Positions 16,318 through 47,218 of a DNA stretch of 64,000 nt are shown here, piece after piece. The position numbers and the translations under genes were made by a program. The stretch's first letter is position 1. Every line of letters begins with the position of its first letter. The stretch comes from Bosea beijingensis. Its GTDB lineage: Bacteria > Pseudomonadota > Alphaproteobacteria > Rhizobiales > Beijerinckiaceae. The notes below the pieces were generated by a model. That model was not told where the DNA came from. It worked only from the letters and a program-made list of their open reading frames with translations, and searched no databases. The stretch lies in NCBI RefSeq assembly GCF_030758975.1, contig NZ_CP132359.1:4050005-4114004 (forward strand). The letters run 5' to 3'.

Positions 16318-16321
<4 letters not shown>

Positions 16322-17959: not shown

Positions 17960-17977
17960 CTACCTACCGGTAGGCAG
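17960..17977. promoter_or_regulatory. Palindromic operator upstream of the acyl-CoA carboxylase genes
   Basis: CCTACCGGTAGG is a perfect 12-bp palindrome (17963-17974) inside the 18-bp CTACCTACCGGTAGGCAG, which has one mismatched pair. It lies about 45 bases before the carboxylase start. Size and symmetry suit a TetR-family repressor sensing an acyl-CoA, but no such regulator gene lies in the window. Confidence 0.55.
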
Positions 17978-24406: not shown

Positions 24407-25231
24407 TTAAGCGCCGCCGTCCTTCCGGTAGCGCTGGGCGAGATAGACGACCCCGCCCGCGCTCAGTTCGCGATAAAGCACGGACCCTTTCGAGCCCGCG
24501 AACTCGCTGATGAAGCCGCGCATGAAGCGAATCCTGGAGATGCGGGTCCGCTTGCGCTGCTCGGCCGCATCGAGCGCGGCGGTGACGCCTTGCGACAGGT
24601 CGGTTTCGCTCTGCAGTGTCAGGCCCGGCACCGCGAGCTGCTCGCGCAGCAGCGGAAGCGCGCTCTGGCCGCGCATGTCGGCGAAGGTGAGCCAGCCCCC
24701 CGGCGCCAGCACGCGCGCAACCTCGCGCGCGAAGGCCGGCACGTCGCCATAGCAATGCGAGGATTCGATATTGACGACGATATCGAACGAACCGTCCGGG
24801 AATGGCAGCTTCTCGGCATCGCCGATCGCGAAGGTCAGGTTCGCGGTGTCATGGTTGAGGCGGCGTGCCAGCCGCACGGTCGCGGGCGAGTAATCCAGCC
24901 CGGTGACGGCGGCCGGGCCGTGATAGCGGGCGATGTAGCGCGCCCCGCCGCCGCGGCCCGAGCCGATTTCGAGGACTCGCGCGCCCTGCACGGGCAAGCC
25001 GGCCACAGCCTGCGCATAGAGCCCGATGAAGGGGCGGTCGGCTTCATCGCCGCGTTCGAGCGGAAAGGCTTCCCCTGATGGCAGGAAGCCGTAATTCATG
25101 AAGCGCCAGTCATCGTCGCGCCAGCGCCGCGACAGGATGTTGTAGAGGCCGCGCCACAGCCATTTCCGGGCCCGCGGAAAGGCGCCCCTGTCGATGGCCT
25201 CCAGCAGACGGGAGAAGGCTTGGCTCGCCAT
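24407..25231 (-). CDS. Class I SAM-dependent methyltransferase
   Basis: A 274-residue methyltransferase. Motif I is ARVLEIGSGRGGGARYIAR, with LDYSPATVRLAR, the acidic VNIESSHCYGD loop and VLAPGGWLTFADMRG. The overall pattern resembles methyltransferases of phthiotriol/phenolic glycolipid and polyketide-lipid pathways (DRPFIGLYAQAV upstream of motif I). It is the last gene of the minus-strand run FAAL, ACP, PF10118 protein, methyltransferase, so it likely O-methylates the PKS-derived lipid. No membrane segment is evident. Confidence 0.85.
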   Translation of the reverse strand: MASQAFSRLLEAIDRGAFPRARKWLWRGLYNILSRRWRDDDWRFMNYGFLPSGEAFPLERGDEADRPFIGLYAQAVAGLPVQGARVLEIGSGRGGGARYIARYHGPAAVTGLDYSPATVRLARRLNHDTANLTFAIGDAEKLPFPDGSFDIVVNIESSHCYGDVPAFAREVARVLAPGGWLTFADMRGQSALPLLREQLAVPGLTLQSETDLSQGVTAALDAAEQRKRTRISRIRFMRGFISEFAGSKGSVLYRELSAGGVVYLAQRYRKDGGA

Positions 25232-25243
25232 CCGCGCGAGACC

Positions 25244-26173
25244 TCAGGCGCTGGGCTTTGGCGTAGTGGCGGCGGGCGGCGGCAGGTTGGCCGCCAGCCA
25301 GTCGCGCCCCTTGCGCATCAGCTCTTGGTCATCGCTGTTACGCGGGTCGAAGCCCGGCAGATAGTAGCGCAGCGTGTTCGGCAGACAGCGCCGCCAGTAG
25401 CCGGGATAGACCATGGTCACCCAGAAGAAGCGCAACCAGAAGCGCAGGCCCGTCTTGACCCCGTCGTTCTTCGCGTAGATCGGCACGTTACGCAGGAAGA
25501 GTACGAGGAAGGGGAACAGCGTGCCGTTCATGCCGAGGACACGGACGAAATAGCGCTTCCAGCTCGACATTCCCGGCGTCGCCGCCTTGAGCACGTCGAG
25601 CGCCACCGCCTTGTGCTCCAGTTCTTCGAGAGCATGCCACATCCACAGCCGCCGATAGGCCGGCGCGGCCTTGTCCATCAGTTCGGGATGGCGCAGCGTC
25701 AATGTCGACAGGGTTGCCGTCATATGCTCGATCGCGCAGGTGATCGAGAGCCGGTGCAGCGGGTTCTTGACGATCTCAAAGCCCTGCCGGATCGGCTTCT
25801 CCATCTTCTCGACATCGTAGCCGAGCGACATCATCGCGCGATTGTATTCCTCGTGCTCGCGCGTGTGATAGGCCTCCTGCACGGAATAGCCGTTGATCTC
25901 GGCGGCGAGTTCCTTGTCCTGCAGCTTCGGGCCGTAATGCTTCAGCGAGCGGATGAAGAAGCGCTCGCCTTCGGGCAGGAAGATCGACAACCCGTCGATC
26001 AGCACGGTCTTGATGATGTCGTCTTCCAGCCAGTGGCGCTGGGCGTTTTCGAGGATGCCGAAGCGGATATCACGCGGGATGATGTCCTCGGCATTGCCCA
26101 TGTGCTGGCTGCCTGCCGCGTTCGAAGCATGTGCCATCAGCGCTTGTCCATCCGGTGGAGCGTCCTGCCGCAT
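25244..26173 (-). CDS. PF10118-type metal-dependent hydrolase (ferritin-like di-iron protein)
   Basis: A protein of up to 309 residues matching the family annotated as predicted metal-dependent hydrolase. Helical segments carry carboxylate/His ligands: EAYHTREHEEYNRAM, CAIEHMTATLST and WMWHALEELEHKAVALDV, an arrangement like a ferritin-type di-iron centre. A hydrophobic stretch (GTLFPFLVLFLRNVPIY, later FFWVTMVYPGYW) may touch the membrane. Three in-frame ATGs exist near the N-terminus; the longest is given. It stands between ACP and methyltransferase genes in the lipid cluster, where a di-iron oxygenase acting on an acyl chain would make sense. The reaction is unknown. Confidence 0.75.
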   Translation of the reverse strand: MRQDAPPDGQALMAHASNAAGSQHMGNAEDIIPRDIRFGILENAQRHWLEDDIIKTVLIDGLSIFLPEGERFFIRSLKHYGPKLQDKELAAEINGYSVQEAYHTREHEEYNRAMMSLGYDVEKMEKPIRQGFEIVKNPLHRLSITCAIEHMTATLSTLTLRHPELMDKAAPAYRRLWMWHALEELEHKAVALDVLKAATPGMSSWKRYFVRVLGMNGTLFPFLVLFLRNVPIYAKNDGVKTGLRFWLRFFWVTMVYPGYWRRCLPNTLRYYLPGFDPRNSDDQELMRKGRDWLAANLPPPAATTPKPSA

Positions 26174-26291
26174 CGCTTTGTCGGCCGGGCCTACCTACTG
26201 CCGATTCTCGGTGTCGTCGAGGTCGGATTACGCAGCAAAGCTTGCTTCGCGCAGGGTTGCCTTGCAGAAATTCATGTGAAACGCCCGTATC

Positions 26292-26537
26292 TTAGAGCGG
26301 TTTCAAGGTGGAGAGATAATCCGCGAACTGCGCGACGGTCGGATAATCCTGCGTGACGCCGGGATAAAGCTCGACGCGATATTCCTGCTCGACTTCCAGG
26401 ACGAAATGGACGGCGGCGGCGGAGTCGAGGCCGAGGCTGGCGAAGGTCGTCGCGGGCGCGATGCCGGCCTCGTCGATGTCGAGCATGGCGGCCAGGCTGG
26501 ACCGGCAGAAACGTTCGATGTCTGGTGCAGGCGGCAT
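26292..26537 (-). CDS. Stand-alone acyl carrier protein
   Basis: An 81-residue ACP with the phosphopantetheine site at Ser39 in SLGLDSAAAVHFV, and the usual acidic helices. It is placed 55 bases downstream of the fatty acyl-AMP ligase gene on the same strand, so it is the natural acceptor of the activated acyl chain, which it may hand to the PKS ketosynthase. It differs from housekeeping AcpP, which has DSLD at the site. Confidence 0.9.
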   Translation of the reverse strand: MPPAPDIERFCRSSLAAMLDIDEAGIAPATTFASLGLDSAAAVHFVLEVEQEYRVELYPGVTQDYPTVAQFADYLSTLKPL

Positions 26538-26592
26538 GATGATCCGTCGGGTTGGGTGCGGGAGGCTCGCTTGTCGCGTCGGCGGGCTTGGG

Positions 26593-28344: not shown

Positions 28345-28529
28345 CGCAATCTGTCTACGGAACAAGCGTCGTCAGCGGCCGGGAGTATATTGCTTCTGTC
28401 GCTTCCTCTTCTGCATCGAAGCGAGATCGAGGGCGCCTGCTTCCTTCTATGGAGCGCGTGTCGGGCGAGATCAACCTGCAAAAGCTTGCAAGGGCCCCGG
28501 CTGCATGTTGGCGCGAGTGATGCTAGAGC

Positions 28530-30365: not shown

Positions 30366-30400
30366 GGGCAGTCGCGACCGCCGCCCAGCCGATTCCGGGC

Positions 30401-31063: not shown

Positions 31064-31244
31064 TGAATTCGACTGCTTGGTGCGGGATGGGCAGGCTAGC
31101 TATTGCCGAGCGCGTCGCCGGTTTCAAGTGTTGCGGGCGCGTGCGGCCTATGTCATGCGGGCGCTGAGCATTCCCGCTCCTTGTGCTGTGTTGGGATCGT
31201 GACGATCGGCGACCGATATCAGCTGACTGTGCCAGGGTTTTCTT

Positions 31245-32534
31245 GTGCCGATCGCCTATGATGCGACACGCTTGTTTCTGGGGCCCTTGTCCCTGACGCC
31301 CCGGGGGATCGACCGGGTCGACCTCGCCTATGCACGCCATTTCTTCGAGCATTCGAACGAGGATTGCTGGGCGACCCTGCCGACGGCATGGGGTACGCGT
31401 GCGTTTCCGCGAGAGCGCGTCCTGCGCGGATTGGCGCGGCTGGAAGAGCTCTGGGCCGAGAACAGGCAGCCCGCGATCGACGGCGCCTGGGCATCACTGG
31501 CACCGACCATGCAGGCGGGCAAGTCGTCCTGGCATCTGCCGCGGAACGGCGGCCTTGCCATTTCCTCGCGGATGACATCGCTGCTCAAGGCGACCGGCAT
31601 CGGCTTCGGCAGGGACGTCGTCAAGACGCTGAAGCCCGGAACGGTCTACGTCAATGTCGGCCAGGTCGGGTTGGCCGTGCCGTTCCTGCTGCGCTGGCTG
31701 CAGAAGCGTCCCGACATCCGCCCACTCTTCATGCTCCACGACGTCATTCCGCTGGAGATGCCCGAATATGTCTCGCCCGGCGCGGTCAAGGCCCACGCGA
31801 CGATGGTCGACCAGACGGCGCGCTATGCCGCCGGGCTGATCGTCACGACCCGCACAGCCCAGCAGGCGATCGAGCACGAACTCAATCGCCGTGGCGCGAG
31901 GACGCTGCCCACGCTCACGCTGCCGCTGCCCGTTCCCTCGATCTTTCGCGAGCCGCCGGACCCGGATCCGACACTGGCCTCCATCCCTTACTTCGTGGTC
32001 TGCGGCGCGATCGAACTCCGGAAGAACCATCTCCTGCTGCTTGAGGTCTGGAAGCGGCTGCACCGCCGGCTCGGCACGTCGACGCCGCATCTCGTCATTG
32101 CCGGCGCGAAGGGCTGGCAGGGCGACCTGATTCTCGACCGCTTGCGGCGCTCCGGCGATGTGAGCACCTATATCCATGTCGTCCACGGCCTTTCCACGCC
32201 GGCGCTAAAGCGGGTGATCAGCGGCGCGCGCGCCTTGCTGATGCCGTCCTTCATCGAGGGCTTCGGCCTGCCGGTTGTCGAGGCGGCGGCGCTCGGCACC
32301 CCGGTCGTCGCCTCGGACATTCCGGCGCATCGCGAAGTCGGTCATCCCGAGACGGTTTTCGTCGATCCGATCGACGGTCTTGGCTGGGAGGCGGCCATTG
32401 CCTCGCTCCTGTCGGCCGGGCCGCGGCGCCTTTCGCCCTTTCCAGCTTATGCGAATTTCACCTGGGTCGAGTATTTCGCCGCGCTGTCGTCCTTTATTCG
32501 CAGGATCGAAGACGATAGAACGGCTTTGGGCTGA
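31245..32534 (+). CDS. Glycosyltransferase family 4
   Basis: GT-B glycosyltransferase of 429 residues. The C-terminal donor domain shows YFVVCGAIELRKNHLLLLEVW, VHGLSTPALKRVISGARALL and the EX7E block SFIEGFGLPVVEAAALGTPV. The N-terminal half (AYDATRLFLGPLSLTPRGIDR) is of the type seen in rhamnosyl/mannosyl transferases of surface glycans. It begins with GTG and has no signal peptide, so it acts at the cytoplasmic face. Upstream and co-directional with the PKS gene, about 115 bases away. It is likely to glycosylate either the lipid or the surface polysaccharide. Confidence 0.87.
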   Translation: MPIAYDATRLFLGPLSLTPRGIDRVDLAYARHFFEHSNEDCWATLPTAWGTRAFPRERVLRGLARLEELWAENRQPAIDGAWASLAPTMQAGKSSWHLPRNGGLAISSRMTSLLKATGIGFGRDVVKTLKPGTVYVNVGQVGLAVPFLLRWLQKRPDIRPLFMLHDVIPLEMPEYVSPGAVKAHATMVDQTARYAAGLIVTTRTAQQAIEHELNRRGARTLPTLTLPLPVPSIFREPPDPDPTLASIPYFVVCGAIELRKNHLLLLEVWKRLHRRLGTSTPHLVIAGAKGWQGDLILDRLRRSGDVSTYIHVVHGLSTPALKRVISGARALLMPSFIEGFGLPVVEAAALGTPVVASDIPAHREVGHPETVFVDPIDGLGWEAAIASLLSAGPRRLSPFPAYANFTWVEYFAALSSFIRRIEDDRTALG

Positions 32535-32650
32535 ACTCGGATTGTTTTTTGGCGGCAGGCACCTTATCAGCAGAGAAGGATGGGAGCGAGACTAGTCTGC
32601 CGTAAAGCACTGGCCGTGATTGCGTGAGAGCACTGGGATTGCCGAAGTCT

Positions 32651-35600
32651 ATGTCGTTTCACAAGCAATCAACTGCCGTAGGGGCAGCCATCATTGGCGC
32701 TTCCTGCATTTTGCCCGGTGCGAATAGCCTCGAATCGCTTTGGCGGCTGCTGCTGGAAGGCCGAAACGTCGTCTCGGAGCGGCCGCACGGGCGCTGGAAC
32801 GTCGAGCGCTTCCTGCGCCCGGGCGATCCTGCCCCCGGATTTTCCTATAGTTTCGCCGGCGGCTATCTCGACGATGCGTTCGGGTTCGATCCGACGCCGT
32901 TCAGTATCTCCCCGCGCGAAGCCCAGCAGATGGATCCACAGCAGCGCCTGCTGCTGATGACTGCCTGGCGCGCCTTCGAGGATGCCGGCCTGCCGCCATC
33001 GACCCTGGCCGGCCGCAATGTCGGCGTCTACGTCGGCGCCTCGCTCGCCGATTACCAGAGCGCCGGCGCCTTCGATCCGGCGGTGATCGGCAGCCATTTC
33101 ATGACCGGCAATGCCCTGTCGATCCTGGCGAACCGGCTTTCCTACGTCTTCGACCTGAAGGGGCCGAGCTTCACGGTCGATGCGGCCTGTTCCTCATCCT
33201 TCATCGCGTTGGCGCAGGCGGTGGCGGCACTGCGTGCCGGGGATGTCGATCTTGCGATTGTCGGCGGCGTCAACATGCTGCTCTCGCCGGTGCCCTTTAT
33301 CGGCTTCTCTCAGGCGCGCATGCTGTCGACGACGGGGCTGTGCCGGCCATTCTCCGAGGCCGCCGACGGCTATGTGCGCTCCGAAGGCGCGGTCGTGCTC
33401 GTGCTTCAGCGGGAAACCGAGGCGATCGCGGATGGCCGCCGTGTCCGCAGCGTCGTCGTCGCTGCCGGGACGAATGCCGATGGCCGGACGAACGGCATCT
33501 CGCTGCCGTCGCAGGATACGCAGCAGCAGCTGATCGAAATGACCTATCGGAACGCAGGCTTTGCCCCCGATGTCCTGGCCTTCGTCGAGGCGCATGGGAC
33601 TGGGACGAAGATCGGCGATCCCATCGAGGCTGCGGCGATCGGCGAGGCGCTCGGCCGGCATCGCGCTGCGCCGCTGCCGATAGGCTCGATCAAGTCGAAT
33701 CTCGGCCATCTGGAGGCGGCTTCGGGGCTCGCGAGCCTGCTCAAGGCAAGCCTGGCGCTGGAGCATCGCCTCGTTCCTCGGTCGCTGTTCTCCGAGACGC
33801 CGAACACGGCGATCCCCTTCGATGATCTCAATCTGCAGCCTCTCGTCGAGCCCCTCGCCTTGCCGTCCGATGGCCGCGATCTCGTCGCGGGAATCTGCAA
33901 TTACGGCTTCGGCGGGACCAATGGCCACGCGATCCTGCGCTCGGCGCGTAGCGAGGAGCAGGGTAGGGCAAGCGCTGGGGTTTCCCGGCCGGCCGAGATG
34001 CTGCTGGTTTCTGCCAGCACGGCCGAAGCGCTGAAGGCGCGTGCGTTGCAGGCCGCCGAGGCGATCTCAGGCGACCGCCCTATCGAGCGGATCGCAAGCG
34101 CGCTTGCCTATCAATGCGAATGGCTACCGCACCGGCTTGCCGTTTCCCTCCCGGAGAAACCAACCGCGGCGGCGGATGTGGCGGCCAGCCTACGCGCCTT
34201 CGCGCAGAACTCGGATTCCCGCAAGGACAGCTCCGCGGCCGTGGTTCACGGCGCCGCGCGGCCTGCGGTCTTCGTGTTCAGCGGCAATGGCGCGCAATTC
34301 GTCGGGATGGGGCGCGCGGCCTATCGCGTCAATGCCGCCTTCCGGCATGAGGTCGACGAGATCGACCGAATTTATAAAGAGATCGCTGGCTGGTCGATCA
34401 CCGAGTTCCTGCGCGACGGCGTGTCTGACGAGGAGCTCGAACGGACCTCGATCGCGCAGCCATTGATTTTCGCGGTCCAGTCGGCGCTCGCCGCCGTTCT
34501 CGCTGAATACGGCATCCGCCCCGTCGGCATCCTCGGCCATAGCGTCGGGGAAATCGCGGCGGTGGAATGCTCCGGCCTGATCTCCCGGCGCGATGCGTTG
34601 CGGGTGATGCACAAGCGCAGTCACCATCAGGAAACGGTGCGCGGCAAGGGCCGGATGCTGGTCCTGGCCTGTCCCGCATCGCGGGTGGAGGAGCTGCTCG
34701 CCGAAGCCAACGCGCAGGGTGTCGACATCGCCGCCTATAACAGCGCGACTTCGACGACTGTCTCCGGCCCTGCCGACCAGCTCGATGCCCTCGCGCGACT
34801 GGCGCGCAAGAGCCGCATCGCAGGCGTTCCCGTGCATGTCGACTACCCCTTCCATTCGCGGGCGCTCGACGAGGTTCAGGAGGCGCTTGTCGCCGATCTC
34901 GGCATGATCGCGGCGCAACCGCCGCGCGTGCCGTTCTATTCGACGGTGTCGGGGCAAGCCCTGGCTCAAGGCGATCTCGATGCGGAATACTGGTGGCACA
35001 ATATCCGCCGGCCGGTTCGTTTCGCCGATGCGGTCGCGGCCGCGCTGGCCGCCCATCCCGATGCGGCCTTTGTCGAGATTGCGCCGCGCTCGCTTCTGGT
35101 CGGGCCGATTTCGGATGTCCTGCGGGCGAGCGAGGCCCAGAATCCGGTGCTGCCGACGCTGGCGGCCAGCGACCCTGCCGAGCGCGATCCGATCCGCGGG
35201 GTTGTCGCGCGCATGGTGGCGAACGGTGTCGCCCATGAGCGGGAGGCGGTTTTCGGCGCCGCGCCGGCGATGGTCGAGCCGCTGCCGCCCTATCCCTTCC
35301 AGCCGGAGGACTACCGCTTCGAGGGGACGGCCGAGGCGATCAACGCCCATGGCCGCCTGATCGCGAGCACGCCGCTGCATCCGCTGCTCGGGCCGCGCGT
35401 TTCGGACGGCTCGGCGGAGTGGCGGAATCTGCTCGACCCGGTCCTGCTACCCTATCTCGACGATCACCGCGTCGATGGTGGTGTGGTCATCCCGGCTGCG
35501 GCGCTGATCGAGTTCGCACTGGCCGCTGGCCGCGAGCTGTTCGGAGAGGTGGCGCTGGAGATCGCGGAATTCGACATCACCAAGGCGATGACCTTCGGCG

Positions 35601-38600: not shown

Positions 38601-40090
38601 TCCTGCGCAACATCGCCTATAGCGGCGTCGATCTCGACGAATTGCTGGCGGCCGACCCTGCACTGGTTCGCGCGATGCTGACGAAGCTGTCCGAGGCTTT
38701 CGCAAGCCAAGGGCTGCGGCCTCTGACCTATCGCAGCTTCGAAGCCTATGAGGTCGGCGCGGCGTTCCGGACGATGCAGGCCTCCGAGCATGTCGGCAAG
38801 ATCGTGATCCGCCCGCCGCGCGCGGCGCGGACTGATCTCGCCGCGCTGAACTATGCCGCTCGCCCCGGCCTCTACGTCGTCGTCGGCGGCACGACCGGCT
38901 TCGGCTTCGCAACGGCGCAATGGCTCGCGCGGAAGGGAGCTTCGCAGATCGCGCTGCTCTCCCGGCGCGGCGCCGTCGATGACGAACTTGCTCCGCAGCT
39001 TGCCGAGATGCACGGGAGCGGCACCGAGGTTGTCGTCGAAACGCTCGATGTCTGCGACAAGGCTGCCGTCGCCGCGACGCTCGGCCGTCTAGCGCGGGAA
39101 TATGGACCGCTGCGGGGCGTCATCCACGCCGCCGTGCATCTCGACGACGGGCTGATCGCCAATTTGACGCCGGAGCGTCTGCAGGCGGTGCTGCGGACCA
39201 AGGTCGACGGTATCATCAACCTCTCGGACGCGACCGAGGACCAGGATCTCGATCTCTTTGTCGCCTATTCATCGGCGACGACGCTGATCGGCAGCCCGGG
39301 GCAGGGCGCCTATGTCGCCGCCAACGGCTTCCTCGAAGGCTTCATGCGTGGCCGCCGCAGCCGGGGCAAGCCCGGTCTCGCCATCGGCTGGGGCGCCATC
39401 GCGGATGTCGGCCTGATCGCGCGCGACAAGCAGCTCGGGCAGCGCCTGCGCCGGGCGACGGGCGTTGTGCCGATGCGCGCCTTCGAGGCGTTGGCGCATC
39501 TTGGCCGTCTGCTCAGCCTGGGCGAAGCGGCTGATCCCGTGCAGTTCTATGCTGGGCTTTCGGCCGGCTCTGGGGGCGAGAAACTCGCCTTGCTCAAGAG
39601 TCCGGCTTTCCTCAATCTCGCCCAGCCGGGCGGCGAGGCGCGGGCCGCCCATGCCGAAGACCTCGGCTCCAGCTTGCGCGATAAGAGCCGCGAGGAGGCG
39701 ATCGGAATCGTTACCGGTGTGCTCCGCCGCGAGGTCGCCGAGATCTTGCGTATGGCGGAAGGCAAGGTCGACCTGACGCGCCCGCTCGCCGATCTCGGCC
39801 TCGACTCGCTGATGGCGCTCGAACTCCACATGGCGCTCGAGAATGCCATCGGCGTCCAGATCGCGGTGGTTGGTGCTGGCGACCGCAGCCTGCTCGACAT
39901 GGCCGGCACGATCGTCGACCAGCTCGATCAGGCGCAGGATCAGGAAGAGACCGACCCGGCTCCGACGGAGAACATGCAGGCGACCATCATCCGGCTCGCC
40001 AATGTGCATTCGAAGATGGATATCTCGCCCAAGCAGGCTAGCGAGATCGAGGCGATGGTTCGCCGGCCCAGCCGTGGCGCCGCCGAATGA
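32651..40090 (+). CDS. Single-module fully reducing type I polyketide synthase (KS-AT-DH-(psi MT)-ER-KR-ACP)
   Basis: A 2479-residue iterative-looking PKS without thioesterase. KS: residues about 10-435, active Cys180 (VDAACSSSF), EAHGTGT and KSNLGHLEA. AT: about 540-880, Ser631 in GHSVGE, with YPFHS at the specificity site (not the YASH of methylmalonyl domains). DH: about 905-1180, His939 in DHRVDGGVVIP and VSLDASFHG (His where Gln is usual). A region of about 1190-1700 has RVLVAGGWNGGLTEAL, a degenerate methyltransferase-like and structural KR part. ER: about 1735-2055, VLVHGAAGGVGLAAIQIA. KR: about 2073-2300, GGTTGFG, Tyr2221 in GQGAYVAANGF. ACP: Ser2386 in LGLDSLMAL. It should make a saturated chain. 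A GTG nine codons upstream is an alternative start. Its stop overlaps the oxoamine synthase start. Confidence 0.95.
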   Translation: MSFHKQSTAVGAAIIGASCILPGANSLESLWRLLLEGRNVVSERPHGRWNVERFLRPGDPAPGFSYSFAGGYLDDAFGFDPTPFSISPREAQQMDPQQRLLLMTAWRAFEDAGLPPSTLAGRNVGVYVGASLADYQSAGAFDPAVIGSHFMTGNALSILANRLSYVFDLKGPSFTVDAACSSSFIALAQAVAALRAGDVDLAIVGGVNMLLSPVPFIGFSQARMLSTTGLCRPFSEAADGYVRSEGAVVLVLQRETEAIADGRRVRSVVVAAGTNADGRTNGISLPSQDTQQQLIEMTYRNAGFAPDVLAFVEAHGTGTKIGDPIEAAAIGEALGRHRAAPLPIGSIKSNLGHLEAASGLASLLKASLALEHRLVPRSLFSETPNTAIPFDDLNLQPLVEPLALPSDGRDLVAGICNYGFGGTNGHAILRSARSEEQGRASAGVSRPAEMLLVSASTAEALKARALQAAEAISGDRPIERIASALAYQCEWLPHRLAVSLPEKPTAAADVAASLRAFAQNSDSRKDSSAAVVHGAARPAVFVFSGNGAQFVGMGRAAYRVNAAFRHEVDEIDRIYKEIAGWSITEFLRDGVSDEELERTSIAQPLIFAVQSALAAVLAEYGIRPVGILGHSVGEIAAVECSGLISRRDALRVMHKRSHHQETVRGKGRMLVLACPASRVEELLAEANAQGVDIAAYNSATSTTVSGPADQLDALARLARKSRIAGVPVHVDYPFHSRALDEVQEALVADLGMIAAQPPRVPFYSTVSGQALAQGDLDAEYWWHNIRRPVRFADAVAAALAAHPDAAFVEIAPRSLLVGPISDVLRASEAQNPVLPTLAASDPAERDPIRGVVARMVANGVAHEREAVFGAAPAMVEPLPPYPFQPEDYRFEGTAEAINAHGRLIASTPLHPLLGPRVSDGSAEWRNLLDPVLLPYLDDHRVDGGVVIPAAALIEFALAAGRELFGEVALEIAEFDITKAMTFGEDETREVSTRYFEHTGTVEIWSRRRFASGDWILHARGALAPLPNAATLPLPPLPTVHAPILSETAEIYAAAERAGLDYGPRFRAVISTLRDETVGESRLLVPEGGTGAYDDRHVLHPVSLDASFHGLFLARPNRDGERKAHLPIRFRHVRVWKPGVSVTHSVTKLETETDRFKTLSVSLMDADGGRVASIEAAVLRSVHLVKPFMIERTFREDHLAIAPVALPAVAFADSGGDGSEEARQLSLLLKAFAISLAQSVCRDLLSTKAGGSFEGVLREGKVAAVAEPLFGMARDILAMAGGLDSAGDGTRLSATFAMPSPQALLGTLQQRFPAANRELRLAAQALVQIAPFLRRGEIDARSSGFSHDQWDLLGTSASMRDVARQALSGWTASASRPLRVLVAGGWNGGLTEALAEAVQAGRIQATFAVANAERADEQRHWPGIGSLFDMLVIDGTAKAAPSRFDALIGFDIPLSPLHETNAQAMRGALKLMAGDAPILLAQPGDDVHLSFLLGAATPAIWQDGRSLPPGGPAGIRRAVEEMRATAIEPAQSPDGALDLISARAAPASASHHASDAIAIVTGQGAVDPRDRYGLLGATLFASDRVEQLAGWLDTLPDGARATVIVAPDAADTIVLDRLSQRIEALITVLKLLTAARRPYRMLVLTGPASAGDNAGAGEEASIHAFIRVAINEFPEIDLRLVEIASSAPAADLAVILKADNAERELRIAASGIEIGRIRRGMERDALLGSDERAVLHFADGVGLDGFEWLRQSRQEPGKGEIEVEVVAAGLNYRDVMVGLGLLDDDLLGAGLTRAALGFECAGRVSRVGPGVTRLRPGDPVMGFAAGAFASHITCPDWHFFPVPEGLDLEAAATIPVAFATAWYALVERGHVRDGETVLVHGAAGGVGLAAIQIAKLHGAQVLGTASNDARRAIATAAGADAVFDSRRERFADEIRQRIGSVDVVLNSLAGPAMLASFRLLKPFGRFLELGKRDFLDNTQLALRPFLRNIAYSGVDLDELLAADPALVRAMLTKLSEAFASQGLRPLTYRSFEAYEVGAAFRTMQASEHVGKIVIRPPRAARTDLAALNYAARPGLYVVVGGTTGFGFATAQWLARKGASQIALLSRRGAVDDELAPQLAEMHGSGTEVVVETLDVCDKAAVAATLGRLAREYGPLRGVIHAAVHLDDGLIANLTPERLQAVLRTKVDGIINLSDATEDQDLDLFVAYSSATTLIGSPGQGAYVAANGFLEGFMRGRRSRGKPGLAIGWGAIADVGLIARDKQLGQRLRRATGVVPMRAFEALAHLGRLLSLGEAADPVQFYAGLSAGSGGEKLALLKSPAFLNLAQPGGEARAAHAEDLGSSLRDKSREEAIGIVTGVLRREVAEILRMAEGKVDLTRPLADLGLDSLMALELHMALENAIGVQIAVVGAGDRSLLDMAGTIVDQLDQAQDQEETDPAPTENMQATIIRLANVHSKMDISPKQASEIEAMVRRPSRGAAE

Positions 40091-41439
40091 GCGATGACAA
40101 CAAGCCTCTGTCCGATGGCGCTCTGGCCGATCTGCTGGCGCAGATGAATGCGGCGCCCCGTGCCGCGCCGGCCTCGGCCGCGCGCGCCGTTCGGCCGCGG
40201 CCGCGCGTCAGTATGGCCTTCGAGGATCATCCGCTCTACCAGCAGATGAAATTCCAGCGCGGCTTCGCCGATTTCGCCAAGCTGCAGAACCCCTATTACC
40301 GTCTGCACGATGCCCAGGCTGGCGCGACCTCGGTGATAGACGGCAAGCCGGTCGTCAATTTCGCGTCCTACGACTATCTCGGCCTGAACGGTCATCTTGA
40401 GATCACAGATGCGGTGGGCAAGGCCGTAGCGGTGTTCGGAACCTCGGTCTCGGCCAGCCGGATCACGGCCGGCGAGCGCCGCGTCCATCGCGATCTCGAA
40501 AAGGCGCTGGCGCGCAACTACGAGGCGGAAGACTGCATCGCCTTCGTCTCGGGCCATGCCGGCGCAGTCTCCTCGATCGCGACATTGCTCGGGCCGAAGG
40601 ATCTGATCCTGCATGACGCCCTGATTCATAATTGCATCGTGGTCGGCGCCCAGCTCTCCGGCGCTACGCGGCGGCTTTTTCCCCATAACGATCTCGATGC
40701 GCTCGAAGCCATGCTCGCGACGGACCGGCACCGCTTCGAGCGCGTGCTGATCGTCAGCGAGGGCCTGTTCTCGATGGATGGCGACGGTCCCGATCTGGCG
40801 CGCCTCATCGCGATCAAGCAGGATTTCTCGGCCTGGCTGATGATCGACGATGCACATGGCCTCGGCGTGCTGGGCGCGAGCGGACGCGGCATCTTCGAGC
40901 ATCAGGATGTCGCGCCCGATGGCGTCGATCTCTGGCTCGGTACGCTGTCGAAGTCGCTCGTCAGTTGCGGAGGTTATGTCGCCGGCTGCGCCGCCGTGGT
41001 CGATCTGCTGAAGCACCAGGCGCCGGGCTTCGTCTACAGCGTCGGAATGCCCGCATCGAACGCGGTCGCCGCCACCGTCGCGCTCGACCTGATGAGGCGC
41101 GAGCCGGAGCGTGTCGCGCGGCTCCAGAGCCAGTCGCAGCGCTTTCGCACGCGCGCACGGCAGGCCGGGCTCGATACCGGCGAAAGCTGGGGCTTTGGCG
41201 TCGTCCCGATCGTCATCGGCGAAACCGTGCCGACCGTCATACTGGCGCAGCGCCTGCTCGAACAAGGCATCAACGCCTTCCCGATCGTGCCGCCAGGTGT
41301 GCCCGAGAAGGCTGCGCGCCTGCGCTTCTTCATCAACGCGACGCATGGCGACGCTCAGATCGACGATGCCGTCGACGGCCTGGTTCGGGAAATCCGGAAT
41401 CTCGGCGATGCATCCCTGAAGCAGATCCTGCGGGGCTGA
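40087..41439 (+). CDS. Alpha-oxoamine synthase (serine palmitoyltransferase-like), PKS-coupled
   Basis: PLP enzyme of 450 residues that condenses an acyl thioester with an amino acid, with decarboxylation, to an alpha-amino ketone. The PLP lysine is Lys289 in TLSKSLVSCGGY; MIDDAHGLGVLG holds Asp254 and His257; VSASRITAGERRVHRDLE is the family substrate block. Residues 1-60 form an Ala/Pro-rich extension before the fold, which could dock to the PKS. The ATGA overlap with the PKS gene argues for stoichiometric expression. With no thioesterase on the PKS, chain release by this enzyme is likely, as in fungal fumonisin synthesis. Serine, alanine or glycine could be the co-substrate; sequence does not decide. 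Confidence 0.92.
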   Translation: MSDDNKPLSDGALADLLAQMNAAPRAAPASAARAVRPRPRVSMAFEDHPLYQQMKFQRGFADFAKLQNPYYRLHDAQAGATSVIDGKPVVNFASYDYLGLNGHLEITDAVGKAVAVFGTSVSASRITAGERRVHRDLEKALARNYEAEDCIAFVSGHAGAVSSIATLLGPKDLILHDALIHNCIVVGAQLSGATRRLFPHNDLDALEAMLATDRHRFERVLIVSEGLFSMDGDGPDLARLIAIKQDFSAWLMIDDAHGLGVLGASGRGIFEHQDVAPDGVDLWLGTLSKSLVSCGGYVAGCAAVVDLLKHQAPGFVYSVGMPASNAVAATVALDLMRREPERVARLQSQSQRFRTRARQAGLDTGESWGFGVVPIVIGETVPTVILAQRLLEQGINAFPIVPPGVPEKAARLRFFINATHGDAQIDDAVDGLVREIRNLGDASLKQILRG

Positions 41440-41549
41440 CGCCGCGCGGCCGGCCTGCTCCGATCAATGCTTGATCGCACAGCCTTCGCCGCATCACTCT
41501 GCCCTCGGCAGCGCTTGAAACGAGACTGTGAAAGAAAAGGCCGGAGCCG

Positions 41550-42875
41550 GTGCCGAAGAATATCCTCCTCGAAGCACATGCGACGATGCTCAAGCAGGGC
41601 ACCGGCATCGCCACCTATGCCCGCAACCTCGCAAGCACGGCGACAGGTCTGGGCTACGACGTGGAACTGCTGCTCGGCACCGAGCAGCGCGTCAACCGGC
41701 GTGACCCGCTCCTGTCGGAAGTGGTTCTCAACGATGCCGTCGATCCGAAGGCGATTGACCCGCTGAAGCTGGTTGCACGCGGGATCGACTGGGTGACCGG
41801 CGTCCCCGGCGGGGTCAAGGCGCAGCGCCTGCCGAACCCGCGCATCGTCGTCGACCGCGGTTCCGGTGGTTCCGCCGAGCGAAGCCATCCGACCTATGGC
41901 GCGGTCCGGCTCTGGGAGCGCGCTTCCATGCATTTCAACCGCTTCGGGCACCGCATGCCAGTGCGCTCCGAGGGCCGGCACGATCTGTTCCATGTGACGC
42001 GCCCGACACCGGCCTTCGTCAAGGGCGCGGCCAATATCTACACGATCCACGATATCGTGCCGCTGCGCCTGCCTTATGCGACCCTCGACAAGAAAAAATA
42101 CTTCTACACGATGATCAAGCATCTCGTGGAGAAGGCGGACCATATCGTCACGGTCTCGGAGTTCACGCGCAAGGACGTCCAGGAGTTCTTCAGGATACCG
42201 GACGATCGCATCACCAATACCTGGCAGTCGGTCTCGATGAGCGAGACGGTCCTGTCCGTTTCGGACGAGGAGGCGGCGCGCGACGTCGACAACCGCTACG
42301 GATTGGCCTTCAAGGAGTATTTCCTGTTCCTGGGTGCCATCGAGCCCAAGAAGAACATCTCGCGATTGGTCGAAGCCTATGCGGCTTCGGGGTCGACGCG
42401 CCCGCTCATACTGGTCGGCGGCCTCGGCTGGCTCTACGAGCAGGATGTCGAGATGCTCAAGGACGAGCGCCTGCTGAGCTGGCGCTTCGATGGCTCGCAT
42501 ATCCGGCCGGAGCGGCGCGTCCAGCGCCTGCCCTATGTGCCGCTGGGCTCGCTCCTGTCCCTGATCCGTGGCGCGCGCGGCGTCCTCTTCCCCTCGCTCT
42601 ATGAAGGCTTCGGGCTCCCGATCCTCGAAGCCATGATGCTGGGGACGCCGGTGATCACCTCCAATACCAGCTCCCTGCCGGAGGTGGCCGGCGATGCGGC
42701 GATGCTGGTCAATCCCTACCATATCGAGGAGATCCGCGATGCGATCCGGACGCTCGACGCCGATGCCGATCTGCGCGCTGAACTGGTCAGCAGAGGGCGC
42801 AAGCGCGCCGAGTTCTTCTCGCCGGCGCGGCATGCCGAGCGGGTAAAGGCGGTTTACGATCGCGTCCTCGGCTAA
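41550..42875 (+). CDS. Glycosyltransferase family 4
   Basis: GT-B glycosyltransferase of 441 residues starting at a GTG behind AAAGGCCGGAG. Donor-domain motifs are [40 protein letters not shown] and [20 protein letters not shown]. The acceptor half has [19 protein letters not shown] and [20 protein letters not shown]. It follows the oxoamine synthase gene by about 110 bases and may share its transcript. A second, different GT4 lies before the PKS, so the lipid genes are bracketed by glycosyltransferases, suggesting a glycolipid product or shared regulation with the glycan. Its stop faces the convergent sulfotransferase gene. Confidence 0.89.
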
Positions 42876-42914
42876 GGCAGGTTCGGCTGGCGATGGCCCC
42901 GCCGCCAACATCGA

Positions 42915-43703
42915 TCAGATGCGGAAACGGCGCCGGATATTGGTGATCCTCTGGGCGAATTCGCCGGTCGGACGCAGCGTGAGCGAGGCCTGTTCCGCGG
43001 CTACCCGGCGTGCTGCTTCAGTCTCGAAGGAGAAGGCCGCATAGAGGTCGGCGTAGCGCTCCAGGAAGATTGTCTGGTCGGCCGCGTCCATTTCCGAGTA
43101 GCGCAGCGCCTTGCCTTTGCTGAACTGCCCGATGCTGCCCTTGTGGCGGAACCGGTCGAGAACGCTGGCGCTGTCCACCGTCGCACCGATCTGGCGCGCA
43201 ATGGCCTGCACGACGCTGGCGCTGTCATAGCAGATGTCGTTGTAGGTGAAGATTTCGACGGGACCGGCGGCAGCCCAGTCCCTGAAGACGCCGAGCTGGA
43301 TATCGATCGCGTTCAACGTGTCCGCTACCGTCGCGAACTCCGAGAACGAAAAGACTCGCCAGCGCCGCGAGCGGTCGCCGTGATCGATCATCGAGAGCGC
43401 GATCTCGCGGGGATCGCGGATCGATGCATTCGCGAGAATCCTCCCGTCCGCCACCATCTGCGCGACGTTGCCGCAGGGCGGGCCATGGGTCTTGAGGACG
43501 ACGTCCTTGCCGTCAGCGTGGCTTTCGATCGCAGCGAGAAGATCGTGATCGATGAAGTTGAAATAGTTTTCGATCGAATCCGGCTTCCGGAACGGCTTCC
43601 CGAGACGAACGATCGGCCTGCCGGCTGCGCGAAAGATCTCCTCTGTCAACTGATAGAGAAAGGTGCTCGCGGATTTGGTAATGCCGTAGCATATATAGAT
43701 CAT
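42915..43703 (-). CDS. Sulfotransferase-like protein
   Basis: A 262-residue protein starting MIYICYGITKSASTFLYQL, in which GITKSASTFL is the 5'-phosphosulfate loop of PAPS-dependent sulfotransferases. A 3'-phosphate site is suggested by ILANASIRDPREIALSMIDH. The rest (EIFTYNDICYDSASVVQAIA) is family-like. The open frame extends 69 codons upstream but that part is a shadow. Placed after the SDR/acyltransferase/P450 run on the same strand, it could transfer sulfate from PAPS to the lipid or glycan. I am less sure of activity, since these short bacterial members are little studied. Confidence 0.75.
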   Translation of the reverse strand: MIYICYGITKSASTFLYQLTEEIFRAAGRPIVRLGKPFRKPDSIENYFNFIDHDLLAAIESHADGKDVVLKTHGPPCGNVAQMVADGRILANASIRDPREIALSMIDHGDRSRRWRVFSFSEFATVADTLNAIDIQLGVFRDWAAAGPVEIFTYNDICYDSASVVQAIARQIGATVDSASVLDRFRHKGSIGQFSKGKALRYSEMDAADQTIFLERYADLYAAFSFETEAARRVAAEQASLTLRPTGEFAQRITNIRRRFRI

Positions 43704-43761
43704 GCGCTGTCCCGCAGGTAACGCTTGGTCTGCACCGCGGTGGGGTAGGGTGTCGAGGCAC

Positions 43762-44628
43762 TCATGATTTGGGATCGTTGATCCTATTCCGCTTGAGGAT
43801 GCGTCGTTGCTGCCATGCGAGGACCGGTCTGTACAGGCTATGGAACTGTGCGAGCCAGGCCATCGTCCGCGAGGGCGCCAGGAAGAAGGCTCCAGTCTCG
43901 GCCTGTGCAATCATCCGCTCGGCGACCTGGAGTGCGGTCATCGTACCGCCCTGCTCGGAGACCAGACGGGTCACCAGCGGACGCTTCGGCCTTTCCCCGA
44001 CCAGTTGCGGCGTCTCGGTATCGGGCGGGGCGACGAAGCTTACGGTAATGCCGTCCTCGGCGAGCTCCAGCCGCAGGATCTCCGCCAGCGCCCGCACCGC
44101 AAACTTGCCCGGCGCATAGCCGCTATAGCCGGCGATCCCGATGAAGGCCGCGCCGGATGAGACCAGCGTGATCCGGCCGCCATGCCCACGCATCACCGGA
44201 ACGGCGGCCTGGATCAGATGAAGCGTCCCGAAGTAATTCGTCTCCATCTGCGCCCGGTGGGCGGAGAGATCGAGATCATGGAACAGGCCGGGCTCCACGA
44301 TGCCCGCCGAGGTGATCAGCCAGTCGATCCGCCCATGCCGGGACGCGATGCCGGTGATGGCTGCCTGGCAGGCGGCTGCATCGGTGACATCGACGGGCAC
44401 GAGATCGACACGCGCTTCAGCGTCTGAACCAATCGAAGTAGCGGCCTCACGCAGCCGATCGGGATCGCGCGCCAGAAGGGCGATGCGATAACCCTGCGCC
44501 AGGAGCACACGGGCGCAGGCCAGCCCGATCCCGCTCGATCCGCCGGAGATGACGGCGACCTTTTGAAGGGAGGGGGCTGGCACGAAGGCGCTCTCCGATC
44601 TGGCGGCTGCGGGGCTTGCGGCGGTCAC
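43762..44628 (-). CDS. Short-chain dehydrogenase resembling 3-ketosphinganine reductase
   Basis: SDR of 288 residues. The cofactor loop is AVISGGSSGIGLACARVL, NxAG-type motif is LITSAGIVEPG, and the catalytic residues are the Ser of LVSSGAAFIG and the YxxxK of YSGYAPGKFAVRALAEIL. The block FVAPPDTETPQL matches the PPDTDTPG element I associate with 3-ketodihydrosphingosine reductases (KDSR), and the C-terminal region has the hydrophobic/basic tail (RPVLAWQQRRILKR) seen there. The start is GTG overlapping the acyltransferase TGA (GTGA); the longer open frame is a shadow. It would reduce the ketone produced by the alpha-oxoamine synthase. Confidence 0.83.
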   Translation of the reverse strand: MTAASPAAARSESAFVPAPSLQKVAVISGGSSGIGLACARVLLAQGYRIALLARDPDRLREAATSIGSDAEARVDLVPVDVTDAAACQAAITGIASRHGRIDWLITSAGIVEPGLFHDLDLSAHRAQMETNYFGTLHLIQAAVPVMRGHGGRITLVSSGAAFIGIAGYSGYAPGKFAVRALAEILRLELAEDGITVSFVAPPDTETPQLVGERPKRPLVTRLVSEQGGTMTALQVAERMIAQAETGAFFLAPSRTMAWLAQFHSLYRPVLAWQQRRILKRNRINDPKS

Positions 44629-45473
44629 ACGATCGGGCCGATCGAGTCGTCGAGATAATACCACTGGTCGAGATGGCGCAGGATCGCAGGTTCGATCCGG
44701 CTGTTGAGGAAGGCGACATCGGCAAGCGGACCGCTCACCCCGGCATCCATATGGAACGGCCCCTCGAAATGAAGCCGGAAGCGCGCGCCTTCCAACCGTT
44801 CGCAATACACCACCACGAGCTGCGCCCCGGTGCGCCGGGCGAGCTTCGCCGCCAGCGCGAGATTGCCTTTCGCATGCGGAGGCCGCCCGAACAGGGGCGC
44901 CATCATCGTGTCGCCCCGCTTCTCGTCGGGGAAGAGGGCCAGCACGCCGTTCTCCTTCAGTATCGACAGCGCCCTGAGCGCCCCGTTCCGGTCGGGCGGC
45001 AGCACCTTGACGTCGAAGCCGCTGCGGGTGGCATCGGCGATGTCGCGATGGGCGGCATTCTCCGGCACTTCGGAGATCGAGGCGATCGGAACGCCGATCA
45101 TCTGCATGGCCGAAGCCAGCACCTCCCAATTGCCGAGATGGAGGCACAGCGCGATGGTCGGTACCTTGCCCACCTGGGCGCGCGCGGCTTCGGCGCCGAC
45201 GAATTCCAGGCGTCCCGACGCGGCAAAGCGATGCACGATCGAGAATTCGGCCATCAGGCGCCCGACATTGTCGACGAAGCGCCAGACGAGCCTGTCGACC
45301 TCGGCCGCGGGCATCGCCGGAAAATGGTGCCGGATATTGTCGCGAGCCTTCCGGGCGACCTTCGGATCGATAAAACGGATCTTGAGCCAGGCCAGCCTTG
45401 CGCCGATGTCGGAAACGAGCGGGATCGGCAGGCGCCGCAGGGCGCGATGCAGCACTCTCTCCAGGGCCTGCAT
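44625..45473 (-). CDS. LpxL/HtrB-type acyltransferase
   Basis: Lysophospholipid/lipid A acyltransferase family protein of 282 residues. The catalytic HX4E is HLGNWE, followed by PDRNGALRALSILKENGV and LFPDEKRGDTMMAPLFGRP, characteristic of LpxL-type enzymes. The N-terminus has the conserved VARKARDNIRHHFP block. The ATG giving MQALERVLHRALRRL is preferred; it lies 13 bases after the P450 stop. The downstream SDR start overlaps its stop. In this operon it may N- or O-acylate the amino lipid rather than lipid A, but a lipid A role cannot be excluded from sequence. Confidence 0.86.
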   Translation of the reverse strand: MQALERVLHRALRRLPIPLVSDIGARLAWLKIRFIDPKVARKARDNIRHHFPAMPAAEVDRLVWRFVDNVGRLMAEFSIVHRFAASGRLEFVGAEAARAQVGKVPTIALCLHLGNWEVLASAMQMIGVPIASISEVPENAAHRDIADATRSGFDVKVLPPDRNGALRALSILKENGVLALFPDEKRGDTMMAPLFGRPPHAKGNLALAAKLARRTGAQLVVVYCERLEGARFRLHFEGPFHMDAGVSGPLADVAFLNSRIEPAILRHLDQWYYLDDSIGPIV

Positions 45474-45486
45474 GGCAATCGTTCCG

Positions 45487-46920
45487 TCAGATCCCGTATC
45501 GCGGCGCGCGCGCGACCACGCAGGCTGGCAGACCACCCTTGGGCCGCAGCGTCAAGCGGCAGACAGGCTCGACCTTGTAACCCTCCCGCGGCAACACCTC
45601 GAAGCGTTGGGCCAGGATCGCCAAGCACAAGGTCGCCTCATCCAGGCCGAAATTCATGCCCGGGCAGATGCGCGGGCCGACTGCGAACGGGATATAGGCG
45701 AAGGGGTCGATCCGGGCGCCCGACAGGAAGCGTTCCGGCAGGAAATGGTTCGGCCTGTCCCAGAGATCGGGAGAGCGGTGCAGCAGCCACGGCGCGATCA
45801 TCACCAGCGCGGATTTCTCGACATCGATATGGCCGATGCGATCGGCCTCGCGCGCCTGCCGCGGCAAGAGGGGAACCGGCGGATAGAGCCGCAGGGTTTC
45901 CTGGATGACGGCCCGGCACCAGCGCAATCGCGGCAGGTCGGCGAACGTCGGCACCCGATCACCGCAGACCTCGGCGATCTCGTCATGGACGCTCTGCCGG
46001 ACCCAGGGCGCATTGGCGAGCAGATACCAGGCCCAGCTCAGCGTCGTCGCCGTGGTTTCGTGTCCGGCCATGAAGATCGTCGCCGCTTCGTTGCGCAAGG
46101 CCGCGACGTCGAGTGGCTCGCCCCCGCTCTTCTGGTTGCGGCGGATCAGCAGGTCGACCATCGAGCCTGCATCGCCCTTGCCGGCGAGATGGGCGTTGAT
46201 GACGCTCTCGACGACGCCATGCACCATCGCGATCGCCTGACGCCGGCGCTTGCCGCCGAAGGCCGGCCAACCCTCGTCGGCGCCCAGGAAATAGCCGAGA
46301 TTGAAGGAATCGGCATGGCGCTGATAGCTGCTGAAACCATCGATGACCTGTTGGGCGGCTTCGCGCGCGATCGTGTTGCCGAAGACGGCGCGCGAAATGA
46401 TCGCGGCGGTCAGGCGCCCCATTTCCTCGGTGAGCTCGACCTCGGAGCCAGCGGGCAATTCGGCCCATTCGGCGGCGACGGCGAGCGCCGCATCCTCCAT
46501 CGTCTGGCCGAATTCCGGCAGGCGGCGCTTATGGACGATATCGGCGACCAGCGGCCGGCGCCGTTTCCAGGTCTCGCCATCGCTGATGAAAAGCCCGTCG
46601 CCGAGCAGGGCCTCGAGCGCCCTTCGCATCTGCGGGCTTTTACGCTCGAAATTATCGTGCCGGGTGACGACGACGTGACGGATATGCTCGGGGCTGTTCA
46701 CGAACACGATCTGCCGGCGCAGGACGCGGAAGCTGTCGATGCCAGCGCGATAAGAGGTTGCAGGCCAGACCGCGATGAGGTTGCGGCGTGCGCCGACGAT
46801 CATCTGAACGAGATTGGGATCACGCGGCAAAGGCTGCGGATGAGCGGGAACGAATTCGGCCGGACTGTGCGTTTCGATGGTCTGCGGGGCGCGATATCGC
46901 TTGGAAATGAGGCTGATCAT
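45487..46920 (-). CDS. Cytochrome P450
   Basis: Soluble bacterial P450 of 477 residues. I-helix oxygen-activation motif AGHETTATTLSW, K-helix ETLRLYPPVP, PERF motif FLPERFLSG and heme loop FAVGPRICPGMNFGL with the ligand Cys near residue 419. The sequence type (long, ETLRLYPP, no signal) resembles CYP4/CYP102-like fatty acid hydroxylases more than CYP101-like ones. It starts a minus-strand operon with acyltransferase and SDR genes, and is divergent from a glycosyltransferase. A role in hydroxylating the alkyl chain parallels the P450 of fumonisin clusters. No ferredoxin gene is adjacent. Confidence 0.92.
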   Translation of the reverse strand: MISLISKRYRAPQTIETHSPAEFVPAHPQPLPRDPNLVQMIVGARRNLIAVWPATSYRAGIDSFRVLRRQIVFVNSPEHIRHVVVTRHDNFERKSPQMRRALEALLGDGLFISDGETWKRRRPLVADIVHKRRLPEFGQTMEDAALAVAAEWAELPAGSEVELTEEMGRLTAAIISRAVFGNTIAREAAQQVIDGFSSYQRHADSFNLGYFLGADEGWPAFGGKRRRQAIAMVHGVVESVINAHLAGKGDAGSMVDLLIRRNQKSGGEPLDVAALRNEAATIFMAGHETTATTLSWAWYLLANAPWVRQSVHDEIAEVCGDRVPTFADLPRLRWCRAVIQETLRLYPPVPLLPRQAREADRIGHIDVEKSALVMIAPWLLHRSPDLWDRPNHFLPERFLSGARIDPFAYIPFAVGPRICPGMNFGLDEATLCLAILAQRFEVLPREGYKVEPVCRLTLRPKGGLPACVVARAPRYGI

Positions 46921-47218
46921 GGAGCATGTGGCCGGCAGTGACCGCGACAAGAAACCTTGGCAGCTCGCGCGTCTGGGGATAGTGAAAAAGCGTTTCCGAT
47001 ACTAGGCGGTGCGTTGAAGTGCCGCTTTCTCTCACGAACATTGGCGTTGGCGCAAACGACTTCGTTGAGGAGGGAAGACTGCCGGTGCGCGGCTATCCGA
47101 GGGAGCCTCCGATCGAAAGGCCGTTTCCTTCTGGCATGGCGTCGATTAGCGTCCGAAGCGGTTTCGCGGTTCTTTCGAGGACTTCGGAGGATTGGCCTGG
47201 AGTGGCGGAACGTCTGGG
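46921..47218. other. Divergent intergenic region, P450 operon / TPR-glycosyltransferase
   Basis: 298 bases between two divergent genes, less GC-rich than its neighbours. Open frames here are short and lack codon bias. It must contain promoters in both directions; I see no convincing operator, hairpin or RNA. Confidence 0.5.

Follow-up and report, generated by a model that had tools for sequence, protein, structure and literature searches.

A polyketide synthase and alpha-oxoamine synthase gene cluster of Bosea beijingensis that probably builds a sphingolipid-like lipid

In this study, we report a gene cluster of Bosea beijingensis that probably builds a sphingolipid-like lipid on a polyketide synthase (PKS). 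It lies in a stretch of 64,000 nucleotides of contig NZ_CP132359.1 (positions 4,050,005 to 4,114,004; the whole stretch is hereafter called the window), which belongs to a complete genome of 5.56 Mb. The core of the cluster is formed by a reducing one-module PKS (32624..40090, forward strand), an alpha-oxoamine synthase (AONS; 40087..41439, forward strand) and a short-chain dehydrogenase/reductase (SDR; 43762..44628, reverse strand) that resembles 3-ketosphinganine reductases (KDSR). With moderate confidence, we propose that the cluster makes a sphinganine-type long-chain amino alcohol, and that this alcohol forms the lipid moiety of a glycolipid at the surface or of a polysaccharide anchor. 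The original prediction, made from the letters of the window alone, had already put forward an amino alcohol whose chain is built on the PKS, with the AONS providing for release and the SDR for reduction. These steps gain support from the AONS, which falls in a clade of its own and has a serine palmitoyltransferase (SPT) as its best solved match, and from the KDSR-like SDR. Its claim of novelty for bacteria did not hold, since the PfSgaABC system of Pseudomonas fluorescens MYb115 already pairs a PKS with an AONS and makes sphinganines (PMC12134224). In addition, it missed the recurrent capsule context of the related clusters.

Core genes of the cluster

The PKS has 2488 amino acids, and a Pfam domain scan gave the order KS-AT-DH-ER-KR-ACP with no thioesterase match. 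The active-site motifs are in place and were found by pattern: DAACSSS, EAHGTGT and KSNLGH in KS, GHSVGE with PFHS in AT (which we take to be of the malonyl type), HRVDGGVVIP in DH, GGVG in ER, GGTTGFG and YVAAN in KR, and LGLDSL in ACP. The stop codon of the PKS and the start codon of the AONS share four bases (ATGA, 40087-40090). The window thus has the trait of the SgaABC type, which is a reducing one-module PKS devoid of thioesterase and adjoining an AONS. At this junction, the short tail after the ACP domain of the PKS (window ~39930-40090) has a histidine in nearly all of the 25 rows compared, often within HG or RHG, and the N-terminal extension of the AONS (region 40087-40230) includes an LxxLLxxMR-like stretch. 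Both could be docking elements.

The AONS is of the PF00155 type and carries the motif GTLSKS, found by pattern. It scored below the cut-off of every NCBIfam model listed, including the second best, a Bacteroidota-type SPT model (279.5 against 640), the KBL model NF005394 (272.4 against 460 bits) and the SPT model NF047603 (162.6 against 670 bits), whose cut-off is itself exceeded by only one of the seven proteobacterial SPT references. Among solved sequences, the Sphingobacterium SPT was the first match both for the single AONS sequence and for a profile of 24 sequences, with 276.7 bits for SPT 3a2b and 259.2 bits for the best other enzyme, KBL 1fc4, in the profile search. Two phylogenetic trees included BioF and KBL references above their curated cut-offs and proteobacterial SPT references (n = 7, one above the cut-off and the rest next-best matches). 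In both, the PKS-linked AONS formed their own clade (100/100), separate from the SPT, BioF and KBL references and outside the canonical SPT clade. The AONS of the window belongs to this clade together with those of Sinorhizobium meliloti and of a Pseudomonas plasmid, and its nearest proteins come from Bosea. An identity as BioF or KBL was rejected on account of the scores below cut-off and the separate clade.

The deep branching order was left open by the first tree. In the second, from which three long branches had been removed, the PKS-AONS clade was sister to BioF (99/94), and its grouping with SPT was not rejected (p-AU 0.179). Regarding the placement for which the original prediction had looked, the AONS lies inside neither BioF nor KBL, and it does not lie inside the canonical SPT clade either; a firm grouping with KBL or BioF, which had been named as contrary evidence, is approached in one tree as a sister relation and is not firm. 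Only three AONS-family matches at E 1e-40 or better were found in the genome, namely the AONS of the window, ALAS and L002 (C1:3454016-3455068; L193 9313-10647). The last was considered as a canonical sphingolipid entry enzyme located elsewhere and was rejected, being long-branched and falling, with 156 bits, short of the SPT cut-off of 670 bits. A stand-alone ketosynthase is found approximately 3 kb from it (L193 4913-6103).

The SDR carries YxxxK and the element PPDTETP, both detected by pattern search. A profile of 10 SDRs with the PPDT element placed TSC10 (8jat, 3-ketodihydrosphingosine reductase) first of 710 matched solved sequences, around 6.5 bits ahead, a rank that may be favoured by the choice of the profile members by this element. 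The element was present in SDR frames of 9 of 88 loci in addition to the window, and also at the RkpH position of S. meliloti. Judged by this profile, the SDR of the window is KDSR-like, and the cluster is predicted to include a KDSR homologue. Its frame is 461 amino acids long, and a start near 44628 is likelier than its first start. Two genes separate it from the AONS, and it is encoded on the opposite strand.

Related clusters and capsule genes

The wider survey used one genome per species and covered the best 80 of 580 confirmed AONS loci, including some of the genus genomes described below. By tblastn, a PKS was found beside the AONS in 77 of these 80 loci, and the three loci without it had fewer than 320 bases available on the PKS side. 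The PKS ended at most 400 bases upstream of the AONS in 72 of 84 loci, and the frames overlapped by 1-8 bases in 55 of those 72, counts that are approximate given that the start was chosen by rule. Capsule assembly and export genes (KpsC/S, Wza/KpsD, KpsM and KpsE; tblastn at 1e-10) accompanied 40 of the 80 loci and 29 of the 53 loci longer than 19 kb. None turned up in the controls, which were 19 stretches of 7-20 kb surrounding SPT, BioF, KBL, ALAS and L002-type AONS. The nominal Fisher p value of this enrichment is 1.5e-5, and the contrast is somewhat inflated owing to the common ancestry of the loci and to several queries having been drawn from them. Gene by gene, KpsC/S was detected in 19, Wza/KpsD in 21, KpsM in 13 and KpsE in 16 of the 80 loci. 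This context suggests that such lipids serve to attach sugar coats at the cell surface. LtaS-family proteins occurred in 8 and CDP-alcohol transferases in 17 of the 80 loci and never together, an exclusivity that is not significant (p 0.19) and therefore a hint only. KpsC/S was nearby in none of the 17 loci with a CDP-alcohol transferase.

Six of 20 AONS-bearing plasmid records, all from Proteobacteria and chosen by hand, were examined by tblastn. A PKS and an LtaS-family protein were found in all six and KpsC/S in five, and a Pfam scan confirmed PF00884 in four. The order in S. meliloti is export protein, PKS, AONS, SDR with PPDTETP, PF00884 frame, KpsC/S-type protein (tblastn) and KpsF. From this order we took the locus to be rkp-1, and the names rkpA, rkpG, rkpH, rkpI and rkpJ are our own assignment. 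The frame at the RkpI position (L171 14256-15794, in a record labelled pSymB) encodes 512 amino acids, matches PF00884 and is missing from the gene table, which is of an incomplete kind. Along most of its length it aligns, at 62% identity, with a neighbour of the PKS-AONS pair in Shinella. This match to PF00884 would suggest a function for rkpI. The products of rkp-1 have been described as making and modifying a specific lipid carrier that serves capsule secretion and as being involved in capsule export (PMC4881576), and wcb and rkp clusters as combining capsule genes with a PKS of the WcbR/RkpA group (PMC3908369).

The Pseudomonas plasmid cluster comprises PKS, AONS, dioxygenase, KpsC/S, GNAT, LtaS-family protein, SDR, two KpsC/S, phosphotransferase, KpsF and KdsB, the three KpsC/S proteins being of PF05159 and the LtaS-family protein of PF00884. 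Its SDR follows the AONS at a distance of five locus tags, which equals that from SgaB to SgaC in MYb115 (RS19800 to RS19775; PMC12134224) and is a hint only. A protein search with the plasmid AONS listed Pseudomonas relatives, one of them labelled P. fluorescens and none identifiable as SgaB. SgaB was also sought in 293 genomes of the order of Vreelandella, of which 17 had a match at 1e-80; stretches from eight of the 17 were retrieved, and the frames of four were read. In this order, L130, L131 and L132 hold a different PKS-AONS cluster with a PKS frame of ~2,050 amino acids. It also comprises an AONS, secreted-looking proteins, a large protein of ~800 amino acids and a short enzyme that resembles a thioesterase by eye; with its shorter PKS, it is not SgaABC. 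The gene that separates PKS and AONS in Caballeronia and Paraburkholderia (L173 10898-11824, L195 10890-11804) is annotated as UDP-3-O-acyl N-acetylglycosamine deacetylase, and in Paraburkholderia a GNAT gene follows the AONS.

Organization and conservation of the Bosea cluster

All the genes named in the original prediction are present as intact open frames of the expected Pfam or NCBIfam families. The accessory fatty acid hydroxylase-type gene (PF04116; 23585..24385, forward strand) is among them, located just outside the interval 24407..46920 to which it had been assigned. The PKS and the AONS are flanked by two GT4 glycosyltransferases encoded on the forward strand, one directly upstream of the PKS (31245..32534) and the other directly downstream of the AONS (41550..42875). 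A WcbI-domain protein of polysaccharide biosynthesis (PF18588; 28530..30365, forward strand) is followed by a CDP-alcohol phosphatidyltransferase (PF01066; 30401..31063, reverse strand) with its signature DxxDGxxAR...GxxxDxxxD intact. A fatty acyl-AMP ligase (FAAL, PF00501; 26593..28365) and a free acyl carrier protein (ACP, PF00550, with a GLDS motif; 26292..26537) are encoded on the reverse strand. The best NCBIfam models of the FAAL were a nonribosomal peptide synthetase/PKS model followed by fatty acyl-AMP ligases, none of which reached its cut-off. The accessory genes on the same strand encode an LpxL-type acyltransferase (PF03279, motif HLGNWE; 44625..45476), a cytochrome P450 (motif FAVGPRICPG; 45487..46950), a di-iron-like PF10118 protein (25244..26173) and a methyltransferase (24407..25231) whose nearest models, below cut-off, are phthiotriol and fatty-acid O-methyltransferases.

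An AONS at E 1e-100 was found in 12 of 37 genus genomes, including that of the window, and the cluster is thus accessory in the genus. The FAAL, at E 1e-80, was present in 11 of the 12 AONS-bearing genomes and in 0 of the other 25 (nominal Fisher p 1.4e-8, in related genomes), a count in which a lower-ranked homologue was possibly missed given that most genomes were scored for the first 22 candidates only. In 24 further genomes of the order, the AONS was found in three and a FAAL match in one, these being different genomes. The distance between FAAL and AONS was 11.7-12.8 kb in 8 of 11 genomes and 28-32 kb in two, and the genes were on separate contigs in one. Neighbour conservation was counted in ten FAAL-bearing relatives, where absences may fall outside the stretches examined. 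The ACP, the WcbI-domain protein, the CDP-alcohol transferase and the downstream GT4 were present in all ten, the SDR in nine, and the PF10118 protein, the methyltransferase, the hydroxylase and the P450 in seven each. The LpxL-type protein was full length in four, and 10-20% of its length was matched in three more (G001, G008 and G019), which keep the P450 neighbour, so that it seems dispensable. This conservation across the genus carriers argues that the gene block is beyond chance. As regards the acylation, hydroxylation and head-group steps of the original prediction, conservation is uneven, from 10/10 relatives for the CDP-alcohol transferase to 7/10 for the hydroxylase and 4/10 for a full-length LpxL.

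Other features of the window are a protein without Pfam match (42915..43721, reverse strand), presumably sulfotransferase-like by its motif, and a Wza/KpsD-type polysaccharide export protein near the cluster (PF02563 and SLBB; 18416..19573, forward strand). The cluster is flanked on one side by a sulfate-activation gene (PF01583 plus GTPase domains; 20548-22452) and on the other by a sulfotransferase-like gene below cut-off (51355-52320), and sulfation of the surface polymer is possible. An extender unit might come from a biotin-dependent acyl-CoA carboxylase, encoded by a gene pair (14315-17985) that precedes the PKS by ~15 kb.

Proposed pathway and alternative explanations

In the proposed pathway, the FAAL would activate a fatty acid and load it onto the free ACP, which would prime the PKS. 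The two might instead feed the AONS or an N-acylation directly, given that a specialised ACP (AcpR) and an acyl-ACP synthetase are located beside SPT in other Proteobacteria (PMC9386255). The PKS, with the domains and active sites observed, would elongate the chain, presumably in an iterative manner, and reduce it fully. The AONS would release it through a decarboxylative condensation whose amino acid partner, by analogy with PfSgaB, is most likely serine, and the KDSR-like SDR would reduce the 3-keto group. A phospho-head group would come from the CDP-alcohol transferase and sugars from the GT4 enzymes on either side, while the P450, the hydroxylase, the PF10118 protein, the methyltransferase and the LpxL-type protein may tailor the lipid in a way that varies by strain.

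Capsules assembled by KpsC/S have a lyso-phosphatidylglycerol foot, and capsules of the ABC-transporter type are thought to rest on a glycerolipid foot. The anchor role is proposed from the neighbouring genes and from the fit of phosphoglycerol-sphinganine to the foot of KpsC/S capsules. In capsule-bearing relatives, the PKS-AONS core may supply the lipid under the capsule, with phosphoglycerol-sphinganine replacing lyso-phosphatidylglycerol. More tentatively, with doubt slightly outweighing belief, we put forward that the PKS-AONS-SDR clusters, namely RkpA/RkpG/RkpH, SgaABC and probably WcbR/WcbT, form a single system making a capsule-foot sphinganine. For the types of rkp-1, Pseudomonas, Caballeronia and Halomonas, an LtaS-family transferase (RkpI) would form the phosphoglycerol-sphinganine that replaces lyso-phosphatidylglycerol under KpsS/KpsC. 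In the Bosea branch, LtaS and KpsC/S would have given way to GT4 enzymes, a CDP-alcohol transferase and a FAAL/ACP pair as starter. If this is true, it identifies the specific lipid carrier with which rkp-1 has long been credited and makes it directly testable, it merges the rkp/wcb capsule literature and the 2025 literature on PKS-derived sphingolipids into one pathway, and many bacteria not known for sphingolipids make them. The Bosea version would then provide a second head-group route for comparison.

It must be noted that several results weigh against these proposals. The single SDR sequence of the window ranks TSC10 34th of 595, and TSC10 is absent from the best 60 matches when the profile is built from three neighbouring SDRs that lack the PPDT element. 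The SDR of the Pseudomonas plasmid cluster is a member of this profile and lacks the element, which counts against a simple one-to-one picture. The AONS of the window is likened to SgaB by architecture, and its best NCBIfam model is BioF TIGR00858 (345 against a cut-off of 426.45 bits). No capsule gene was found in the stretch examined in 40 of the 80 loci; among the 53 loci above 19 kb, this holds for 24. In addition, PF05159 (KpsC/S) has no match in the whole window genome and PF00884 (LtaS family) has none in the 38 window frames scanned, a search that did not extend to the rest of the genome, so that the anchor route of the relatives is incomplete here.

The same chemistry may make a free membrane or secreted sphingolipid, as in MYb115, without any anchor role and with the sugar genes as mere neighbours. 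We consider this unlikely, though it is the alternative to be taken most seriously. The PfSgaAB sphinganines are described as secondary metabolites and the word stem capsul has no occurrence in the main text of that report (PMC12134224), and the lack of KpsC/S in the window genome and of capsule genes in half of the loci agrees with it. However, GT4 genes flank the PKS-AONS pair in the window and in the Bosea loci, capsule genes occur at 40 of the 80 loci and at none of the 19 controls, and rkp-1 has a role in capsule export (PMC4881576). It is improbable that the AONS uses another amino acid (glycine, alanine or cysteate), in which case the product would be an aminoketone, a 1-deoxysphinganine or a sulfonolipid. 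SPT is the best solved match of its profile and the KDSR-like SDR fits a 3-ketosphinganine, although the position of the AONS outside the canonical SPT clade, the solved cysteate acyltransferase 28eh among its relatives and the sulfate-activation gene at 20548-22452 are compatible with such a substrate.

Less probable still is a division into two pathways, in which the PKS, AONS and SDR make one lipid and the FAAL, ACP, PF10118 protein, methyltransferase, hydroxylase and P450 another. The PF10118 protein, the methyltransferase and the hydroxylase are each absent from the examined stretches of 3 of 10 relatives, and the FAAL lies 28-32 kb from the AONS in two genomes; nevertheless, the FAAL accompanies the AONS in 11 of 12 genomes against 0 of 25, mostly (8 of 11) at 11.7-12.8 kb. 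Finally, we give hardly any credit to the AONS being the biotin enzyme BioF of this genome. No BioF above cut-off is found in it, BioF is the best NCBIfam model and the two are sister in one of two trees (99/94), but the score is below the BioF cut-off, the frame overlaps the PKS, the clade is separate (100/100) and the AONS was not found in 25 of 37 genus genomes at E 1e-100.

Comparison with known systems

In fumonisin synthesis, the fungal FUM1/FUM8/FUM13 genes provide a reducing PKS, release by an AONS and a KDSR homologue, together with a P450, and the window is alike in all of them by description, not by sequence. FUM13 is also named in the report on PfSgaABC (PMC12134224). A transfer of the fumonisin type from fungi was rejected as unneeded, since bacterial relatives are abundant. 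The wcbR/wcbT genes of Burkholderia, of which we take wcbT to encode an AONS, were likewise compared by description and not by sequence. They share with the window a PKS of the WcbR/RkpA group, there in a capsule cluster (PMC3908369).

PfSgaAB makes C24-C28 sphinganines, and PfSgaB is a serine-specific SPT that uses L-serine in vitro; the SgaABC cluster contains a KDSR homologue, probable phosphoglycerol-sphinganines are made, and 6,101 homologous clusters were counted (PMC12134224, 2025). The window shares with it a one-module PKS, presumably iterative here as well, adjoining the AONS and a KDSR homologue in the cluster, and adds the FAAL/ACP, the CDP-alcohol transferase, two GT4 enzymes, the WcbI-domain protein, the P450 and the LpxL-type protein. 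A statement of the link between capsules and sphingoid lipids was not found in the open literature searched, subscription papers, supplements and preprints being largely outside it. In the review PMC12220298, rkp, wcb, sphing, sinorhizobium and polyketide have no occurrence.

The canonical proteobacterial SPT systems resemble the window in the fold of the AONS and in having an adenylating enzyme and a dedicated carrier protein close by (PMC9386255). The window differs in the chain built on a PKS, in the AONS outside the SPT clade and in the location of the FAAL and ACP, ~4 kb from the PKS and on the other strand. The rkp-1 locus of S. meliloti shares the PKS, followed by an AONS of the same 100/100 clade, and an SDR with PPDTETP. 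In contrast to it, the window has neither PF00884 in the frames scanned nor PF05159 in the genome, and carries a CDP-alcohol transferase and the FAAL/ACP pair instead.

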